A stretch of 64,000 nucleotides of DNA from Fulvia fulva (lineage: Eukaryota; Ascomycota; Dothideomycetes; Mycosphaerellales; Mycosphaerellaceae), in assembly GCF_020509005.1 (NCBI RefSeq), contig NC_063013.1, positions 1,860,001 through 1,924,000 of the forward strand, written 5' to 3'. Positions within the stretch are counted from its first letter, which is position 1. Every line of letters starts with the position of its first letter. Below are positions 2,601-58,649 of the stretch, one piece after another. The position numbers and the translations under genes were made by a program. The notes below the pieces were generated by a model. That model was not told where the DNA came from and did not search any database. It worked only from the letters and a program-made list of their open reading frames with translations.

Positions 2601-3119
2601 TGTTATAGTCTCCCTATAGAGTATATAGAAGGTAGGGACAGAAGAGCCTTAGAGTACTTAGAAGTCGTTAAGAAGTGAAAGTCTAGCTTAGTATATAAGC
2701 GCTAAGAATTATATACCCCGTAATATTTACTACGGGACCTAGCCCTCCAAATTTACTACTCTACTAACCCTTAATAGATTTACTTCGGCTCGTAACTATA
2801 TGACTTACGGTACTCCCGCGAGTACCCGCGACTACGGTAGACCCTAGAAGAAGCTCGTAGAAGACTCGGAACGTAGGATAGGTTAGAATAAGGTTTTGAG
2901 CAAAGCTACTAAGCGCGGCTTCGTACGGGTTAGCCCTATTAATGCGGGGACACGTACTCGCGAGGGTCGCGTATAAATATCTGGCCTTCCCTAGGCCTCT
3001 CTTACTTTCTTCGTCTTTTATTTTATATAGCAATTATACTATACCCTTTATATCTATACTTCGTACCTACATTCTCGCTTTTATTCTTATATCTTATAGG
3101 CTAGGCTCTCGCCCTAATA
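2601..3119 (+). repeat. Gypsy B copy 1, 5' LTR
   Basis: 519 bp, starting TGTTATAGTC and ending CCCTAATA, where the other copy's outer edge keeps CCTAACA. It is near-identical, apart from C/T and G/A differences, to the reverse complements of 20723-21242 and 26494-27013. A TATA box (TATAAATAT) lies at 2972, and the presumed RNA start motif GTCTTTTAT lies 41 nt further on at 3013. Confidence 0.92.
2972..3021 (+). promoter_or_regulatory. Gypsy B LTR promoter: TATA box and presumed RNA start
   Basis: TATAAATAT begins at 2972 and GTCTTTTAT begins at 3013, 41 nt downstream. In the less mutated copy 2 the same 9-mer is GTCTTTTGT. That 9-mer is complementary to the sequence 2 nt after the LTR (3122-3130), which supports placing the RNA 5' end here. 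The start site is inferred. Confidence 0.55.
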
Positions 3120-3121
3120 TT

Positions 3122-3130
3122 ACGAAAGAC
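3122..3130 (+). other. Gypsy B copy 1 primer-binding site, self-complementary to its own LTR
   Basis: ACGAAAGAC starts 2 nt after the LTR end and pairs with the LTR 9-mer at 3013-3021, as judged from the less mutated copy (GTCTTTTGT, one G-U pair). No TGG start typical of a tRNA 3'-end primer site is present. It is one of three families in the window with this arrangement. Confidence 0.55.
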
Positions 3131-14205: not shown

Positions 14206-14439
14206 TATTAAGAACATATAGGCCGTAGGACAAGCATGTAGGTGTGGGTATGTTATATGATTAGATTACGTGACTAGGGTTTACTAGCCTATAGGCTAGT
14301 AAACATCCGGACACCTAGTATCTACCTATACTAACACCGGCGATACTGTATATAGATATACGCTATCCCATTAGGTCCTTCTTCGTCTTTTGTGTAATCC
14401 GCCGTCTTCTACTACTACGTAACTCGTACCTATATAATA
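14206..14439 (+). repeat. Copia D 5' LTR
   Basis: 234 bp, the same length as the 3' LTR. The two differ only by C/T or G/A. The start reads TATTAAGAAC here (TGTTAAGAAC in the 3' copy). It contains a 26-bp palindrome at 14279-14304. Confidence 0.92.
14279..14304 (+). repeat. Perfect 26-bp palindrome in the Copia LTR
   Basis: The segment reads the same on both strands, centred on CCTATAGG and ending in GTTTAC/GTAAAC. The 3' LTR copy (19581-19606) has one mismatch, a G for A. RIP at symmetric TG and CA positions may have preserved or restored the symmetry. It could form a hairpin in RNA or bind a dimeric protein. Its function is unknown. Confidence 0.85.
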
Positions 14440-14455
14440 GGTTATAAGCCCGGGT
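14440..14455 (+). other. Copia D primer-binding site, matching the initiator tRNA-Met anticodon arm
   Basis: GGTTATAAGCCCGG follows the 5' LTR directly. Allowing one RIP change (GGTTATGAGCCC), its complement GGGCTCATAACC is the anticodon stem-loop of initiator tRNA-Met with the CAU anticodon. Drosophila copia and some fungal Copia elements prime with a 5'-half fragment of this tRNA. The match is seen in the sequence, and the primer use is inferred. Confidence 0.65.
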
Positions 14456-19507: not shown

Positions 19508-19741
19508 TGTTAAGAACATACAGGCCGTAGGACAAGTATATAGGTGTAGGTGTGTCATATAATTAGATCACGTAACTAGGGTTTGCTAGCCTATAGGCTA
19601 GTAAACATCCGGACACCTAGCATCTACCTATACTAACACCGGCGATACTATATATAGATACACGCTATCCTATTAGGTCCTTCTTCGTCTTTTATATAAT
19701 CCGCCGTCTTCTACTACTACGTAACTCGTACCTATATAACA
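19508..19741 (+). repeat. Copia D 3' LTR
   Basis: 234 bp, TGTTAAGAAC to TATATAACA, with the TG and CA ends intact. It is followed by the cgccc duplication at 19742-19746. Confidence 0.93.
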
Positions 19742-26482: not shown

Positions 26483-26491
26483 GTCTTTTAT
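26483..26491 (-). other. Gypsy B copy 2 primer-binding site, self-complementary to its LTR
   Basis: On the minus strand ATAAAAGAC begins 2 nt after the 5' LTR. Before one CA-to-TA RIP change it would be ACAAAAGAC, an exact complement of the LTR motif GTCTTTTGT (plus 26593-26601). That motif begins 41 nt after the TATA box at 26642. Confidence 0.6.
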
Positions 26492-26493
26492 AA

Positions 26494-27013
26494 TATTAGG
26501 GCGAGAGCCTAGCCTATAAGATATAAGGGTAAAAGCGAGAATATAGGTACGAAGTGTAGATATAAAAGGGTATAGTATAATTGCTATACAAAACAAAAGA
26601 CGAAGGAAGTAAGAGAGGCCTAGGGAAGGCTAGATATTTATACGCGACCCTCGCGAGTACGTGTCCCCGTATTAATAGGGCTAACCCGTACGAAGCCGCG
26701 CTTAGTAGCTTTACTTAAAACCTTATTCTAACCTGCCCTACGTTCCGAGTCTTCTACGTGCTTCTTCTAGGGTCTAGCGTAGTCGCGGGTGCTCGCGGGA
26801 GTGCCGTGAGTCATATAGTTACGAGCCGAAGTGAATCTGTTAAGGTTTAGTAGAGGGGTGAATTTAGAGGGCTAGGTCCCGTAGTAAATATTACGGGGTA
26901 TATAATTCTTAGCGCTTACACACTAAGCTAGACTGTCACTTCTTAACGACTTCTAAGCACTCTAAGGCTCTTCTATCCCTACCTTCTATACTCTCTATAG
27001 GGAGACCATAATA
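26494..27013 (-). repeat. Gypsy B copy 2, 5' LTR
   Basis: 520 bp, near-identical to 20723-21242. On the minus strand the promoter TATAAATAT starts at 26642 and the presumed RNA start motif GTCTTTTGT starts at 26601. It is followed on the right by gttac (27014-27018). Confidence 0.92.
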
Positions 27014-30379: not shown

Positions 30380-30563
30380 TGTCACGGGCAGCCCGCGACC
30401 CCTCACTGTAGCTGCGTCGGCCCGGCTGAACCGCGGACCTTCTGCATCGGGTTAGCGCGGCTTGGCTTTACTTTATAACTTCGCCGCGCCTCGCGCTCCT
30501 CTTTCGTAGCTTCGTAGAACAACAACTATCTCATTCGGACCCTATGGTACGCGCGCCCTTACA
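30380..30563 (+). repeat. A1 5' LTR
   Basis: 184 bp, TGTCACGGGC to CGCGCCCTTACA. By inference U3 is 30380-30513 and R-U5 is only about 50 nt (30514-30563). Identity to 37418-37601 indicates a very recent insertion. Confidence 0.96.
30472..30522 (+). promoter_or_regulatory. A1 promoter: TATA box and presumed RNA 5' end
   Basis: TTTATAA at 30472-30478 is the only good TATA box in the LTR. GTAGAACAA at 30514-30522 begins 40 nt after TATAA. It is complementary to the primer site at 30566-30574, which is why I place the RNA start here. The start site is inferred, not mapped. Confidence 0.6.
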
Positions 30564-30565
30564 GT

Positions 30566-30574
30566 TTGTTCTAC
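30566..30574 (+). other. A1 primer-binding site, complementary to the element's own RNA start
   Basis: TTGTTCTAC begins 2 nt after the LTR. It is the exact complement of GTAGAACAA in the LTR (30514-30522). There is no TGG as expected for a tRNA 3'-end site. This matches the arrangement known for Tf1 of fission yeast, in which the folded-back 5' end of the transcript is the primer. Confidence 0.7.
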
Positions 30575-30581
30575 CTTACTA

Positions 30582-30600
30582 CCCAGATCGCGGATCTAGG
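30582..30600 (+). other. Small hairpin just below the A1 primer site
   Basis: AGATC (30585-30589) and GATCT (30593-30597) form a 5-bp stem with a GCG loop, extended by CC/GG beyond one mismatch. It lies 8 nt after the primer site and could help fold the RNA for priming. The role is speculative. Confidence 0.35.
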
Positions 30601-30699
30601 TAAGGGACGCGTAACAACAGGAACAGACAGAACCGCAGAACTCGAGAACGCGCAGAGCCGCATCAGAACACAGAACACGGTAAGGCGCACAGCGCGCAG

Positions 30700-32826
30700 A
30701 TGCCTAGAGAACGCAACGCGGCGACACCATCAGCAGGTGGTCGCGCGCTCGTAGACAGTCAGGATACAGGCACCGTCACGCCTCCCCCGAACCCAGACAA
30801 CATGACTTCACAAACAGCGAACGGCGGCATGCGACCGCCACCTAAGCCTAAGGGCAAAAGCAAGCAGCGCACATCTCTTTTCCCCGACCTCTCCTCTTTT
30901 CCTCAGAGTCAGACACAGGACGACAACCGGCGGGTCACAGTAGACACCGGTGTCGCGCTACAACAAGAGATTGATAAAGCTTACCAGAAGGCCTTCGAGC
31001 GAGAAGAAGGTGGTGAGATTGACTTTACAGAACTGTTCGAGTTCAAGCTCGAAGAGAACCCAGGCGGCGACCCAGACGAGGTGTATCTATCACTCGACGA
31101 GGCAGAACACATTCTCGCATCCGAATACCAGAATGTCACCCCAGACAACCTCACGACCCTTGCATCCCAACACCCGAAGACCACCCACGACTTCGTGCTA
31201 CAAGCAGTCAACACGGCAATTACTAAGGGCAGACAACTCGATGTAATGGAGCGAGCCAACGACCTCCAGAACACCCAGTACACCACGCTGTACACCGAAT
31301 ACGACCGCATCTACAAGATGCTGCGAAGTGAAGAGCTTGTCACACAGAAAATGGCAGCAGATCTCAAGAGCAAGAAGGATTGCGACCCAGCTAAGTTGCA
31401 AGAGCTGGGGAAGAAATACAAGGAAGCCAACAACCTGTGCAAGCAGTTCAGCGAGATCTGCGAGAAGGAGAAGAAGAAGGCACAAGATGCTGAGGCGAAG
31501 AACCAGGCCCTACAACAAGAAGTCGATGACCTGAAGGCTCGGCTTGAGGCAGGAGACACCACACAGAACGGAGGTAGGGGCCGCTCAGGCCGCCGACCCT
31601 CTCGTTCCCGCCCACGCGAGACCTCACTCGAGCAGCTATTGCGTAGGTATCGCGAAGCTGCTGGTGGAGGGGGCGGTGGCGGTGGTGGTGATAACGATAA
31701 CGATGGAGACGACGATGACCGTGGCGACAATGGCCGAGGACGTGACAACGACCGTCCGCGACCAGGACCCAACAACAGTCGTGACTCGAGAATGCGCAAC
31801 ACCCGCACCCAGACACCACTGGTTGACCTTCCAGAACGTCTCTTCACCATTGACCGCACCCTCACTCGCGGCATGGAGATCGGCAAGGGTGTGCCCGACC
31901 CTAAGCACTTCAAGAACGATGACGACCCCAATTTCGACAGCTGGTACAGCAGTGTTCTCCTAAAGCTGACTGTAGCAACCTTCCGCACTGAGGCAGATGG
32001 TCTGCGCTTCGTGTATGGGTGGACACAAGGTGATCCTCAGCGAAGCATCAAGCCGAGGATCCCTGTGCCTGGACAGCAGTCCTTCAACGAGTTCAAGACT
32101 GGAGAAGAGTTATTAGACTGGATGACACGCCAATATGGCACACGCAATGAGGGAACCAAGGCTATGGTTGACATTGCTACCTGCAAGCAAGAACAAGGCG
32201 AAACCTTTGTAGCCTTCCATGCCCGCTACTCGAAGTTGCGCGCCTGGATGTCATGGACCGATGAGACCGAGCTCATGCTGTTCCGTAACCGACTGAACCG
32301 CAAGTACTTCATCAAGACCTTCGGCGACCGCGAAGTCGACCGCCGCCTAGACAGCATGCAAGACGTTATCGAGGAGTGCACCGCACTGGACGAGAGTTTC
32401 TACGAGACAGATCGACTATACCCGCAGAAGGAGCGCCCCCGGGGCAATGGCAACTCGAACAGCAATGGCGGCCAGAACAACCAGAACAACGGCAACGCAG
32501 TTGCTAGTGCCGCTGCCGGTGTAGCAGGTGCCTTGGTACAGCGCCCACTACAGTACGCTGGTACCAAGAAGAAGGAGGATCTGCCGACACATCTACAGAA
32601 CCTGCCTACGCTCAACCGTGAGCAGCGCGAAGACCTTAAGAAGCAGGGTAAGTGCTACCGCTGCCGTACAGGTTCTCACGTGTCGACCAACCCTGAATGC
32701 CCAATGTATGGGTACGATGGCGACTATCGCCCACCGCGTCCACGCAATACCACGCCGAATCCGAACGCGAACCTCAGTTCCCTAGCCGCCGATCCGCGGC
32801 AGGGAAATGGCACGACCGCTGCCTAA
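30700..32826 (+). CDS. gag: A1 Gag, capsid-nucleocapsid precursor (708 aa)
   Basis: Gag assembles the cytoplasmic particle that packages element RNA. Visible parts in order are a proline-rich N-terminus and an acidic helical region. A Lys/Glu coiled coil spans about 208-284, and an RS-rich basic patch (RSGRRPSRSRPRE) comes next. A Gly9/Asp-Asn low-complexity linker spans about 322-370. The conserved gypsy Gag core runs from about 385 to 585 (for example FNEFKTGEELLDWMTRQYG, then FHARYSKL). The zinc knuckle has C652, C655, H660 and C667, so its last spacing is 6 rather than the usual 4. The ATG at 30700 is the first in-frame start I find after the LTR, 137 nt downstream. A -1 frameshift signal 16 nt before the stop links it to Pol. 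It is longer than most gypsy Gags because of the coiled coil and linker. Confidence 0.95.
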   Translation: MPRERNAATPSAGGRALVDSQDTGTVTPPPNPDNMTSQTANGGMRPPPKPKGKSKQRTSLFPDLSSFPQSQTQDDNRRVTVDTGVALQQEIDKAYQKAFEREEGGEIDFTELFEFKLEENPGGDPDEVYLSLDEAEHILASEYQNVTPDNLTTLASQHPKTTHDFVLQAVNTAITKGRQLDVMERANDLQNTQYTTLYTEYDRIYKMLRSEELVTQKMAADLKSKKDCDPAKLQELGKKYKEANNLCKQFSEICEKEKKKAQDAEAKNQALQQEVDDLKARLEAGDTTQNGGRGRSGRRPSRSRPRETSLEQLLRRYREAAGGGGGGGGGDNDNDGDDDDRGDNGRGRDNDRPRPGPNNSRDSRMRNTRTQTPLVDLPERLFTIDRTLTRGMEIGKGVPDPKHFKNDDDPNFDSWYSSVLLKLTVATFRTEADGLRFVYGWTQGDPQRSIKPRIPVPGQQSFNEFKTGEELLDWMTRQYGTRNEGTKAMVDIATCKQEQGETFVAFHARYSKLRAWMSWTDETELMLFRNRLNRKYFIKTFGDREVDRRLDSMQDVIEECTALDESFYETDRLYPQKERPRGNGNSNSNGGQNNQNNGNAVASAAAGVAGALVQRPLQYAGTKKKEDLPTHLQNLPTLNREQREDLKKQGKCYRCRTGSHVSTNPECPMYGYDGDYRPPRPRNTTPNPNANLSSLAADPRQGNGTTAA

Positions 32827-35800
32827 GCGTGGTAGACAGCGGTCACCCGAACTTCCTAGGACAGAAAGAGCATGAGATTGAGAGACACGGAACGCAAGAG
32901 ACGGTAACAGACTATAGTGAGGAGCTTAAGATATCGGCATGCGCACTGGATAAGCAACAGCCAGCTGTGTACCCTCACATAGTGTTACCCGTAATGATAC
33001 AACAGAGAAAGGCTCGAGGCCTTGTAGATTCTGCTTCCACCTCTCTCTTTCTTGACTGGAAATTCACACGCAAATACACAATACCCCTGATCCCTTTGAC
33101 GCAAAGCCGACGACTAACACTGGGAGATGGAACGGCCACTGCGCGGCAGATTACACACGCGGCCCCTGTAGACGTAGTCATAGGCGATCATCACGAGCAA
33201 ATGTTATGCTACGTCACCGACCTCGAATACGACATCGTCTTTGGCCTGCCGTGGCTTACAGCGCACAACCCAAACATCTTCTGGGAGACAGGCGAGGTGG
33301 CATTCAGGTCGGATTACTGCTTTGGTCACTGTCTACAGAATAAGACACCGACAACAGTGCAATCCCTGAACCACCGCGAGAAGAAGAAGCAGGCACCAGT
33401 ACGGTACGGACCAGAGCCCTTCACTGGAGATGTAGCGAGCTTCACAGCAGGAGGAGCAGAGCTGAATGCCTCATCATATGACCTGGAAGACATAGACGAT
33501 GAAGAAGTGGACTGCCAGGGCGTTTCTCAACGCGCGTGGGGGATGTACGCGCACCGGCCTGGGGCTGAGTGCTTCTACATCATGCCCACTAGGCGTGAGA
33601 GCGACGGCGGAGAGCTTAAGCTGAGTGCAATGGCTGCTGATGATCTGGACCAATTCTTGAACAAGCAGTTCAATCACAACCCGAAGGAGAAGTTGCCGCC
33701 AATGTACCACGATATTGCGGACGCTTTCTCAGCTAAGGATCATGAAGGACTCCCACCTCACCGACTAGGCGTAGATCATGAGATTCACATTAAGCCTGAT
33801 GGTCCACAAGAGCCACCATACCGCAAGCCCTACGGCCTAGCTGAGAAGGAGAACGAGGCAGTTAAAAAATGGCTAGACGAGCAAACATCTGAAGGGAAGG
33901 TGCGGAAAGCAGGGCAAAAGACGAACCAGTCTCCTGCACCAGTGCTAGTGGTACGTAAGCCTGGAGGTGGGCTGCGTGTTTGTATCGACTACAGAGGATT
34001 GAATGCGATCACTATCAAGAACCGGTATCCGATTCCCTTGATACAAGAGACGCTCAACCGCATGCACGGCAAGAAGTACTTCACAAAGCTGGACATTGTA
34101 GCAGCCTTCAACAAGTTACGGATAGCTGAAGGGCACGAGTGGTTGACAGCGTTTGCGACACGATACGGCATCTACGAGTGTCTAGTGTTGCCATTCGGCT
34201 TGTGCAACGGACCAGCATCGTTCCAATCATACATCAACAAGGTCTTGCAAGAACACCTAGACGACTTTGTGTCGGCCTACCTGGATGACGTACTTATCTT
34301 CAGTGACACCTTGGAGGAGCACATTGAACACGTGCGGAAGGTTCTCACCAAGCTACGCGATGCAGGACTTACAGTGGACATCGACAAAAGCGAATTCCAC
34401 CAACAGAAGGTGAAGTATCTTGGGCTAATCATAACCCCTGACGGCATCGAGATGGACCCCGAGAAACTCGAATGTATTCAGACATGGGAAGCTCCTGAGA
34501 ACCTGAAGGATGTCCAGGCCTTCCTTGGATTTGCCAACTTCTACAGGCGATTCATCGAAGCATTTTCGCGCATAGCTGCTCCTCTCACAAACCTGACCAA
34601 GTCGGACGGACCAAGCAATCACAAGAACAGAAGGATTCAATGGTCACTAGATTGCCAACGAGCCTTTGACAATTTGAAAGCTGCGTTCAGCAAAGCCGGC
34701 ATGCTCGCACATTACGTGCCAGGCAGGGAAACAGTAATAGAGACAGATTCTTCAGATTTTGTGAACGCCGGCGTGCTTTCGCAGTATGACGAGAATGGTG
34801 TGCTACATCCTGTGGCCTTCTACTCGAAGAAGTTGAGTCCACAGGAGTGCAATTATGAAATCTATGATAAGGAACTGTTAGCCATCATCAAGGCTTTTGA
34901 GGAATGGAGACCCGAGCTCGCCTGCGAGGCAGATGATGAGGACTCACAGCCAGTCAAGATTTACACCGACCACAAGAACCTGGAATACTTCATGACGACA
35001 AAGCAGCTAAATCGGCGACAAGCGCGTTGGGCTGAGTTCTTGTCACAGTTCAACTTCAAGATAATATACCGTCCAGGACTTCAAGGTACAAAGCCAGACA
35101 GCCTGACGAGACGCAGCCAGGACCTTCCGCAGGGGGTGGACGACCCTCGGAACCAGCATCAGCATCAGACATTGCTGCCTCCTAAGCGATTCCTTAAGAT
35201 CGCCTCACTACAGGCAACAGTAGAAGATGCGCCGGAAGAAGAGGAACCAGTACCGCTAAACCCTGAAGCTGAAGAGTTTATGCCTACAGAACGAGATGCG
35301 CCTACTGAACAACCGGCGACGCGTGAAAGTCAGCGGGAAGCCGAACTCGAGTATCGAATGTCGACGGCGTACGTAACCGATAACGAGCTCAAGACCGCGA
35401 TTAAGGACCTGCAGAAAGACCGCACTCCTACACTGCTACAGAGAGCGAAGATTCACCCAGCACACTGCAAAGTGGATGGCGACCTGCTATATGTTCGAAA
35501 CCAATACGACGGCTGGAGCTTATGGGTACCAAATGACCAAGCTTTACAGACCAGGATAATCAAGATAAACCATGACGCTCCAGCAGCAGGCCATCCAGGA
35601 CGAGCTCGCACTTATGAACTCGTAGCACGTGAATTCTACTGGCCTGGATTAGCGAGATCCGTGCGCAGATACACCGCGAATTGCCGCACCTGCCGTACAA
35701 CAAAATCTCTGCACTCCCAGCCACTAGGATTACTACAGCCACTTCCTGTTCCAGATCGGCCTTGGAAACACATTGCAGTCGACTTCGTTGTCGGACTCCC

Positions 35801-37493
35801 AGACAGCACTCTTGACGGCATGGTCTACAACAACATTATGACCGTCACTGACAGGCTCACTAAGGAAGTCGAGCTGATCCCTATTGGCGCAATGACAGCA
35901 CAGAATACGGCAAGGCTTTTCCTCAAACATGTGTTCTGTCGGCGCGGGTTTCCTGACACCATTACATCAGACCGTGGCAAGCAGTGGGTTGCTACCTTCT
36001 GGAAGAAACTCTGCAAGATGCTCCGCACAAATCGCAAGCTGAGTTCTTCGTATCACCCAGAAACTGATGGACAGTCAGAACGCACTAACCAGGCGATGGA
36101 ACAGTATCTCCGCATGTTCACCAACGAGGCACAGGATGACTGGGCAGAATGGCTGTGCCTTGCTCAGTTCGCGATCAACAATCACCTGTCTGAGACTACT
36201 GGTGTGTCGCCGTTCTACGCCACCTTAGGATACAACCCTGAGTTCATAGAGCGAGTTGACCTGAACGCTGGAAAGGAGGGAGGACTGACCACTCTCCAGC
36301 GACTGGACGCGCGATCAGCAGAAACCTTTGTGCGTCGAATTTGCGAGCTTCACAAACACCTTCAAGAGAATATGCGAATGTCACAAGCTCTCCAAGCAGA
36401 GGCAGCAAACCGCCACCGAAGCATTCCTCCAGACTACAAGGTGGGTGATTGGGTGTATCTTAGCACCAAGAACATCCGCACGACTCGACCATCTAAGAAG
36501 CTGGACAGGAGATATGCCGGCCCTTACCAGATCACGGAAGTTATGCCGGCCAGACTCTCTTATCGACTGAAACTATCAGACGCTCTAGTAGGACTTGATA
36601 ACTGCTTCCACACCTCACTACTACAACGAGCCGACCACCCCGATTTCCCACCACTTGAAGGGCAGCATCTGGCGCCGCCACCACCGATAACTATCGAACC
36701 TGACACCACCGAGGCTGATGCAGCAGCCGATGTAGTGGCAGCACCTACGCACATGTACGAGGTGGAAAAGATCCTTGACATGTACACCCGTAAGCGGGCA
36801 GGCAAGGTGAAGAAGGGGCACAAGCGCAAAGTAGATACATGGTACAAGGTGAAATGGGCTGGATATCAGAACGAAGAGGATGGTGAGACCTGGCAACCTG
36901 CAGAGGACATGCTTGAACACGCAGCCGCCGCTGTTGCAGACTTTCACCATAACCGGCCGGAGTTGTCTACGCCTGTAGGCTTCGCAGCTCCATCTGACTG
37001 GTCCCTACCAGCCACTGAGATACTCGGGCTCAACTCGATCAGGGTCATTCCGAAAGACACCGTCACGAATGAGTCGCCTCGAGCCTTGCCTCTAATAGAA
37101 TCTGCTCCGCACATATTCGATACTCGAGTGGAGCCTACAGAGCCTGCAATGATACCCAACTTTGGTCATAAGGATCATACGCGAGTGCGAGCCGAAGACA
37201 GACTTAGATCTGGGGCAAGCCAGCTAACTAGGCAACATGTTTCTCGAAGGAAGCCGGTCGAGGATAGTCTTGATAGAGCGAATGCGATGTTATCGGATGA
37301 CGACAGGGCACTAGAGGATGATTCGGCGTTCGCGCGATCATGGAGCTCGACAGGCAAGTGGCCTCACAAGGTGAATAACGCTCAGAGGACTGAGGCGTGT
37401 TTTGGGAGGGGGGGTACTGTCACGGGCAGCCCGCGACCCCTCACTGTAGCTGCGTCGGCCCGGCTGAACCGCGGACCTTCTGCATCGGGTTAG
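32697..37493 (+). CDS. pol: A1 Pol: protease, RT, RNase H, integrase, chromodomain
   Basis: This frame lies -1 to gag and overlaps it, and is probably entered by frameshifting at 32802 rather than at the first ATG (32697). Numbering from 32697, the retropepsin site is LVDSAS (D111). RT starts near 395 ([19 protein letters not shown]) and has active-site YLDD at 528-531. RNase H includes D684 and the YDKELLAII and YTDHKNLEYF motifs. Integrase has an HHCC finger starting at H959 and the DD35E triad D1029, D1092 and E1128. A GPY module (RYAGPYQITEV) is followed by a chromodomain at about 1353-1412 (YEVEKIL, WYKVKWAGY, TWQPAEDML). Chromodomains of this group bind methylated histone H3 and direct integration into heterochromatin. 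About 185 further residues follow, and the frame runs through the polypurine tract and ends 76 nt inside the 3' LTR. Confidence 0.96.
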   Translation: MPNVWVRWRLSPTASTQYHAESEREPQFPSRRSAAGKWHDRCLSVVDSGHPNFLGQKEHEIERHGTQETVTDYSEELKISACALDKQQPAVYPHIVLPVMIQQRKARGLVDSASTSLFLDWKFTRKYTIPLIPLTQSRRLTLGDGTATARQITHAAPVDVVIGDHHEQMLCYVTDLEYDIVFGLPWLTAHNPNIFWETGEVAFRSDYCFGHCLQNKTPTTVQSLNHREKKKQAPVRYGPEPFTGDVASFTAGGAELNASSYDLEDIDDEEVDCQGVSQRAWGMYAHRPGAECFYIMPTRRESDGGELKLSAMAADDLDQFLNKQFNHNPKEKLPPMYHDIADAFSAKDHEGLPPHRLGVDHEIHIKPDGPQEPPYRKPYGLAEKENEAVKKWLDEQTSEGKVRKAGQKTNQSPAPVLVVRKPGGGLRVCIDYRGLNAITIKNRYPIPLIQETLNRMHGKKYFTKLDIVAAFNKLRIAEGHEWLTAFATRYGIYECLVLPFGLCNGPASFQSYINKVLQEHLDDFVSAYLDDVLIFSDTLEEHIEHVRKVLTKLRDAGLTVDIDKSEFHQQKVKYLGLIITPDGIEMDPEKLECIQTWEAPENLKDVQAFLGFANFYRRFIEAFSRIAAPLTNLTKSDGPSNHKNRRIQWSLDCQRAFDNLKAAFSKAGMLAHYVPGRETVIETDSSDFVNAGVLSQYDENGVLHPVAFYSKKLSPQECNYEIYDKELLAIIKAFEEWRPELACEADDEDSQPVKIYTDHKNLEYFMTTKQLNRRQARWAEFLSQFNFKIIYRPGLQGTKPDSLTRRSQDLPQGVDDPRNQHQHQTLLPPKRFLKIASLQATVEDAPEEEEPVPLNPEAEEFMPTERDAPTEQPATRESQREAELEYRMSTAYVTDNELKTAIKDLQKDRTPTLLQRAKIHPAHCKVDGDLLYVRNQYDGWSLWVPNDQALQTRIIKINHDAPAAGHPGRARTYELVAREFYWPGLARSVRRYTANCRTCRTTKSLHSQPLGLLQPLPVPDRPWKHIAVDFVVGLPDSTLDGMVYNNIMTVTDRLTKEVELIPIGAMTAQNTARLFLKHVFCRRGFPDTITSDRGKQWVATFWKKLCKMLRTNRKLSSSYHPETDGQSERTNQAMEQYLRMFTNEAQDDWAEWLCLAQFAINNHLSETTGVSPFYATLGYNPEFIERVDLNAGKEGGLTTLQRLDARSAETFVRRICELHKHLQENMRMSQALQAEAANRHRSIPPDYKVGDWVYLSTKNIRTTRPSKKLDRRYAGPYQITEVMPARLSYRLKLSDALVGLDNCFHTSLLQRADHPDFPPLEGQHLAPPPPITIEPDTTEADAAADVVAAPTHMYEVEKILDMYTRKRAGKVKKGHKRKVDTWYKVKWAGYQNEEDGETWQPAEDMLEHAAAAVADFHHNRPELSTPVGFAAPSDWSLPATEILGLNSIRVIPKDTVTNESPRALPLIESAPHIFDTRVEPTEPAMIPNFGHKDHTRVRAEDRLRSGASQLTRQHVSRRKPVEDSLDRANAMLSDDDRALEDDSAFARSWSSTGKWPHKVNNAQRTEACFGRGGTVTGSPRPLTVAASARLNRGPSASG
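32802..32808 (+). promoter_or_regulatory. -1 frameshift slippery heptamer G GGA AAT
   Basis: In the gag frame the codons are GGA AAT preceded by G, which fits the X XXY YYZ rule. After slippage they read GGG AAA in the pol frame and continue KWHDR into Pol. It lies 16 nt before the gag stop (32824-32826). The related heptamer GGGAAAC is used by some lentiviruses. Confidence 0.8.
32814..32844 (+). other. Frameshift-stimulating stem-loop
   Basis: GACCGCTG (32814-32821) pairs perfectly with CAGCGGTC (32837-32844) around a 15-nt loop containing the gag stop. The spacer from the heptamer is 5 nt, within the usual range. CCTA in the loop (32822-32825) could pair with TAGG at 32857-32860 to make a pseudoknot, but this part is weak. 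Confidence 0.75.
37405..37417 (+). other. A1 polypurine tract
   Basis: GGGAGGGGGGG (the G/A run at 37404-37414), then TAC, directly before the 3' LTR. It primes plus-strand DNA synthesis in this superfamily. Here it is also coding, as Pol reads through it (FGRGGT). Confidence 0.85.
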
Positions 37494-37601
37494 CGCGGCT
37501 TGGCTTTACTTTATAACTTCGCCGCGCCTCGCGCTCCTCTTTCGTAGCTTCGTAGAACAACAACTATCTCATTCGGACCCTATGGTACGCGCGCCCTTAC
37601 A
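37418..37601 (+). repeat. A1 3' LTR
   Basis: 184 bp, identical on inspection to 30380-30563. It contains the Pol stop codon at 37491-37493. It is followed by the ccgaa duplication (37602-37606). Confidence 0.96.
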
Positions 37602-58452: not shown

Positions 58453-58462
58453 ATCTATTCGA
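58453..58462 (-). other. Gypsy C primer-binding site, self-complementary to its LTR
   Basis: TCGAATAGAT on the minus strand begins 2 nt after the inferred LTR edge at 58465. It is the exact complement of ATCTATTCGA in the LTR (plus 58507-58516). That motif begins 41 nt downstream of a TATATAA box (minus strand, from 58557). Confidence 0.6.
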
Positions 58463-58464
58463 AG

Positions 58465-58649
58465 TATTATAAGTAGGTATAAGTACGTAGTCGGGTAAGG
58501 TATAAGTCGAATAGATATTCTATCTAAGAGAGGCGCGGAGGGCGCGAGAGTTATATACGGGCGCTAAGCCGCTAGTCGGATTAGTTAGCGGGCGCGAGGT
58601 CTAGGTACGTACCCGCGGGTTTAAGTAAATATACGCCGGTACGGAAATA
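58465..58649 (-). repeat. Gypsy C 5' LTR (inferred)
   Basis: About 185 bp. The inner edge is fixed by TATTATAAG (TGTTATAAG before RIP) and by the primer site 2 nt beyond it. The outer edge is placed at GGAAATA, where gypsy RT sequence of another copy begins. No second LTR is in the window, so the outer edge is uncertain. Confidence 0.5.

Follow-up and report, generated by a model that had tools for sequence, protein, structure and literature searches.

The window, i.e. the whole 64,000-nt stretch of DNA that was analysed (Fulvia fulva contig NC_063013.1, positions 1,860,001 to 1,924,000), lies in a genome of 67.17 Mb on 14 contigs that contains many LTR elements. On the forward strand of the window an intact element of a family termed A here extends over 30380-37601, with identical LTRs and the duplication CCGAA on both sides, and an older family A copy surrounds it. 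Its 5' LTR (TGTCAC...CTTACA, 30380-30563, with the 5-bp CCGAA flank) matches the 3' LTR (37418-37601, 184 nt) at 184 of 184 positions. TATAA (30474-30478) is located 40 nt before the word GTAGAACAA (30514-30522), a putative self-primer that probably marks the RNA 5' end, and the complementary word TTGTTCTAC (30566-30574), the putative primer-binding site, lies 2 nt beyond the LTR end at 30563, all of which agrees with the earlier note on this DNA. Two arms, one in U5 (30549-30562) and one downstream (30600-30612), may form a stem that flanks this site. The element has two long open frames. Frame 1, in gag position, runs from stop to stop (30604-32826, 740 aa); a gag domain search gave no match to it, the only match being a coiled coil below its cut-off. 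The second frame (32697-37493, 1598 aa) is a pol with reverse transcriptase, RNase H, integrase, a Tf2-like SH3 domain (SH3_Tf2-1) and a chromodomain.

The earlier note had described A, together with two further families, B and C, as three unrelated gypsy families sharing a Tf1-like pair layout. The pairs are real, but "unrelated" is too strong, as the pols of A and B share 41.8% identity in an alignment of 1177 aa and thus represent related families, and the gypsy label of C found no backing, since the protein comparison of the C pieces yielded no usable match. Family B was examined in two damaged copies in the window. The copy on the reverse strand has the primer word GTCTTTTGT at 26593-26601 and a binding site with a single RIP-like change at 26483-26491, which is the one mismatch that the earlier note had allowed for. 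The forward-strand copy has two mismatches instead, i.e. a RIP-like change from G to A in the primer (GTCTTTTAT, 3013-3021) and an A to G change in the binding site (ACGAAAGAC, 3122-3130) relative to an undamaged copy outside the window (L069). This copy, whose repeats of 523 nt are 99.6% identical, exhibits a perfect 9-nt pair, GTCTTTTGT/ACAAAAGAC, at an offset of 2. Family C lies on the reverse strand, and here the earlier description of the pair is confirmed: the primer ATCTATTCGA (58507-58516) and the putative binding site TCGAATAGAT (58453-58462) form an exact 10-nt pair with an offset of 2 nt and a TATA-to-primer distance of 41, or 39 if counted from a TATAAC 2 nt further on. The LTR of C is probably located at 58465-58649 on the same strand, as copy homology starts near here and the ends resemble a RIP-changed TGTTA...TAACA; a second LTR was not seen.

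A further element of the window, F, has a RIP-damaged 5' LTR at about 14206-14439 on the forward strand and its other LTR at about 19508-19741. The searches gave no sign that it is a chromovirus: a chromoviral protein match over 60 aa was not found, and among ten pieces of F there was one domain match, to Pol_BBD, with 26.7 bits versus a cut-off of 27, which presumably points to copia. In the genome as a whole, copia-type reverse transcriptases are abundant: at least 150 were scored from 1254 candidates, and some of them sit in open frames of about 1600 aa. The two LTRs of F carry CTTCGTCTTTTGT in one and CTTCGTCTTTTAT in the other (14381-14393 and 19683-19695), both at a TATA-like spacing and both containing the B primer word.

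Recurrence of the pairs in the genome

The exact A pair is found at 228 genome places and the B pair at 217, the reversed-pattern control giving 0 in either case; since the members of a family are not independent of each other, these numbers are not separate trials. For C we compared 24 copies, including the one in the window, from 40 scored places of 317 candidates. Primer and site pair exactly (10/10) in 18 of the 24 and with one or two mismatches in the other six, and one of the 18 exact copies (L071) carries a matching change in both primer and site.

Outside the window a group that is absent from the earlier note, D, uses a fourth primer word in the same layout as A, B and C. Three copies of it (L065-L067; members D1-D3) come from sister families with pols that are 82-93% identical. 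The pair is GGCGTTCAA/TTGAACGCC with an offset of 2-3, and is one base longer in L067. The sister set also comprises family E, represented by the copy L068. A pattern for D1, D2 and E, which fixes seven of the nine site letters and excludes D3 by its gap, occurs at 28 genome places, with 0 in the reversed-pattern control; 27 of these places have GGCGTTCAA and one, L068, has GGCGTTCGA.

At the LTR edge of L068 the exact pair is absent and the observed complement is only 5 nt long. The copy carries an insertion that moves the full site, TTGAACGCC, 69 nt downstream and therefore it fails the exact test. The primer GGCGTTCGA and the apparent site TTGAACGTC of L068 could be joined by two G-U wobble pairs, but we rejected this as evidence for an RNA duplex because of the insertion, the full site further downstream and a junction word that is found at a single place in the genome. 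The generality of self-priming was tested on A, B, C and the D/E set, which covers part of the gypsy elements in the genome; the sequence supports self-priming for A, B, C and the added group D, and L068 fails in the exact-pair test.

Each of the four primer words matches its own site over 9-10 positions in register, and the other sites over 5 or fewer. Within the first 150 leader offsets the longest complement is located at offset 2 or 3 in A, B, D1, D2 and D3, and elsewhere in E (8 nt at offset 86). Target duplications of 5 bp border the LTRs in five of six copies (A, D1, D2, D3 and E), so that the LTR edges and the offsets of 2-3 nt are sound in these; none was found for the B copy L069. 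The distance from the TATA-like word to the primer is 40 nt in A, 41 in B, 39-41 in C, 35 in D1 and 34 in D3, the TATA-like word of D being TATTTA. CTTC directly precedes the primer in A and B, and D1, D3 and E have it 1-2 nt ahead of the primer; it is absent at this position in D2, which has GTTC, and in C. From the TATA-like spacing (34-41 nt) and the placement of CTTC we infer that the RNA would start at the primer word, which is the expectation for the Tf1/sushi group and not a surprise.

Source of the primer, chance and RNA folding

The hallmarks of a tRNA-primed gypsy element, i.e. a TGG start and a complement to a tRNA 3' end, were not found. As the earlier note had stated, none of the sites begins with TGG, which can be read directly. 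The best 3'-end match among 20 tRNA models, an incomplete coverage of the tRNAs, is 6/9 (CCA was appended unless already terminal, as in 4 of the 20). These models stem from 63 scored of 1234 candidates, which gave 22 matches, 20 of them with ARAGORN models; they amount to 16 distinct sequences, and six are copies of one tRNA-like gene in an LTR element. A host tRNA or an internal tRNA fragment might thus prime, the LTR complement being incidental, and internal tRNA matches of 8/9 to a tRNA-Pro model for D and of 8/10 to two models for C would fit this. However, the exact LTR complement recurs at many places with a word that differs from family to family, and we consider priming by tRNA unlikely.

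Even less probable is that the paired words act in the DNA, as an inverted repeat that serves as promoter or binds a protein, and not as an RNA primer. The 5' LTR of F contains the B primer word GTCTTTTGT as well, 36 nt downstream of TATATA and with CTTC immediately in front of it; therefore this word may partly be a start-site motif, possibly one shared by B and F. Against a mere DNA repeat, the binding site borders the LTR, which is the place where minus-strand priming has to start, and F has no complementary site, since at offsets 0-7 its leader start GGTTATAAGCCCGGG (14440-14454, forward strand) complements the LTR over at most 5 nt, although F is a weak control because it is RIP-damaged. 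The F leader resembles the complement of the anticodon arm of initiator tRNA-Met, a possible half-tRNA site; two typed-pattern searches gave 0 matches to an initiator tRNA-Met gene in this genome.

In the shuffle test, which asked for a complement of at least the observed length between a dinucleotide-shuffled LTR and leader offsets 0-4, the observed complement was reached by 2 of 5000 shuffles for A, 69 for B, 17 for D1, 21 for D2 and 2 for D3, the D trials not being independent as the D members are sister families. The E copy L068 fails this test, with 4180 of 5000 shuffles as long as the observed 5 nt. For C the shuffle was a simple one, applied to the upstream 300 nt of copy L071, and the observed match was reached 9 times in 5000. 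That the pairs are chance matches preserved through copying is the least credible of all explanations: it may draw on the dependence among family copies and on the result for B, yet A, B, C and the D group have different words in a common layout.

Unconstrained folding, by a method that cannot predict pseudoknotted structure, gave primer:site pairing probabilities of 0.89 for B, 0.98 for D3, 0.02 for A and 0.00 for D1, D2 and E, and of 0.36, 0.54 and 0.94 for three C copies. The predicted structures thus support pairing in B, D3 and partly C, and not in A, D1, D2 and E. As to a stem between U5 and leader that flanks the binding site, such as has been described for Tf1, a narrow test, which came after a wider one without any conspicuous family, found a stem as strong in 7 of 1000 shuffles for A and 35 of 1000 for B; in D1-D3 and C it was matched by 581-948 of 1000. 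The wider test was unremarkable everywhere (z = -1.4 for A, -1.8 for B and -0.3 to +1.5 for the other rows), and a second flanking duplex was at chance level in all six rows tested.

Relation to Tf1/sushi chromoviruses

The pols that were scanned, i.e. those of A, B, D1, D3 and E, have a chromodomain at the integrase C-terminus together with SH3_Tf2-1. Based on these chromodomains and Tf2-like integrase ends we place A, B and D with the Tf1/sushi chromoviruses, and the LTR edge was also found to carry a site that complements an LTR word close to where the RNA is expected to start, except that L068 fails the exact test. Among the homologues listed (120 of 6027) are named fungal as well as amphibian and fish proteins with 41-62% identity; in viral_contigs no LTR-bearing relatives were found for two query sequences.

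Tf1-like self-priming in A, B, C and D is well supported by sequence, through the recurrence of the pairs in many copies, the family-specific matching, the lack of a good tRNA 3'-end fit among the 20 models and, in A, B and D, the domains. We regard Tf1-type self-priming by Tf1/sushi-type chromoviruses as the best explanation, with a probability of roughly 0.87. In this mechanism the element RNA would begin at the primer word or no more than one to two bases from it, some 34-41 nt after the TATA-like box, and its 5' end would fold back onto the complementary site 2-3 nt past the 5' LTR. RNase H would then cut just beyond the duplex of 9-10 nt and leave a short RNA whose new 3' end would prime minus-strand DNA. 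We infer the cleavage and the priming by the short RNA, as well as that C belongs to the same type of element as A, B and D.

Passages of PMC10085805 describe self-priming as a common feature of Tf1/sushi chromoviruses, together with a "pretzel" structure of three duplexes, and what PMC6317226, PMC4600332 and PMC7175516 say of self-priming in this group, in the parts concerned, agrees with this. Since the literature regards the process as common there, the F. fulva families join a known kind, i.e. they are additions to an already described group and reveal no new mechanism. With them, self-priming reaches several families in a single fungal genome that use different primer words; their recent copies, in which the two LTRs are identical or nearly so, constitute a natural data set for the matching of primer and site over time.

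With Tf1 and Tf2 of Schizosaccharomyces pombe the families have in common the LTR-edge site complementary to an LTR word at the expected RNA start, the order of reverse transcriptase, RNase H and integrase, SH3_Tf2-1 and the chromodomain. They differ in that the F. fulva element has two long frames, that the flanking stem shows up in one of two tests and there just in A and B, and that the pair comprises 9-10 nt versus 11 nt in Tf1 according to a passage of PMC7175516. For Tj1 (S. japonicus) and Tosmo/Tcry1, self-priming has been proposed from the same kind of complementarity, as passages of PMC4600332 and PMC10085805 put it; these elements have other hosts, and the likeness is drawn from published descriptions.

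Chromoviruses of filamentous fungi include MAGGY, skippy, REAL, grasshopper and Cgret. Some of these are self-priming. A figure legend in PMC10085805 sets all five beside the fission-yeast elements, and the same legend also names plant elements. Passages of other papers report exceptions, namely no evidence of self-priming in a Tcn1-clade element of a spikemoss (PMC2864245) and Skipper chromoviruses mostly without TGG and with no LTR complement (PMC5006619), and describe GalEa copia elements of fungi that lack both a tRNA site and a complement of the Tf1 type (PMC5445492).

One may speculate that the binding site is rewritten in each round by copying of the self-primer, so that changes pass between the partners; we consider this doubtful, and the copy L071, in which both partners are changed, can be cited for it, as can the copy L068. 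In L068 (1286-1370) a 59-nt inverted copy (1294-1352) of positions 1646-1704 comes after the 5' LTR and the first part of the binding site, and is itself followed by a second copy of the LTR end and binding site; the junction word is the one that occurs once in the genome. This arrangement resembles a scar left by a template switch during reverse transcription, and the inverted piece, joined within the primer-binding word, is possibly a fossil of plus-strand DNA that ended inside the copied primer.

Finally, L065 carries a tRNA-like gene (1720-1834) in antisense orientation, downstream of the pol frame and ahead of the 3' LTR, which was not found in the sister copies L066, L067 and L068. It scores 41.9 bits with Rfam, is modelled by ARAGORN as a tRNA-Trp with a 41-nt intron, and matches six genome places in all.
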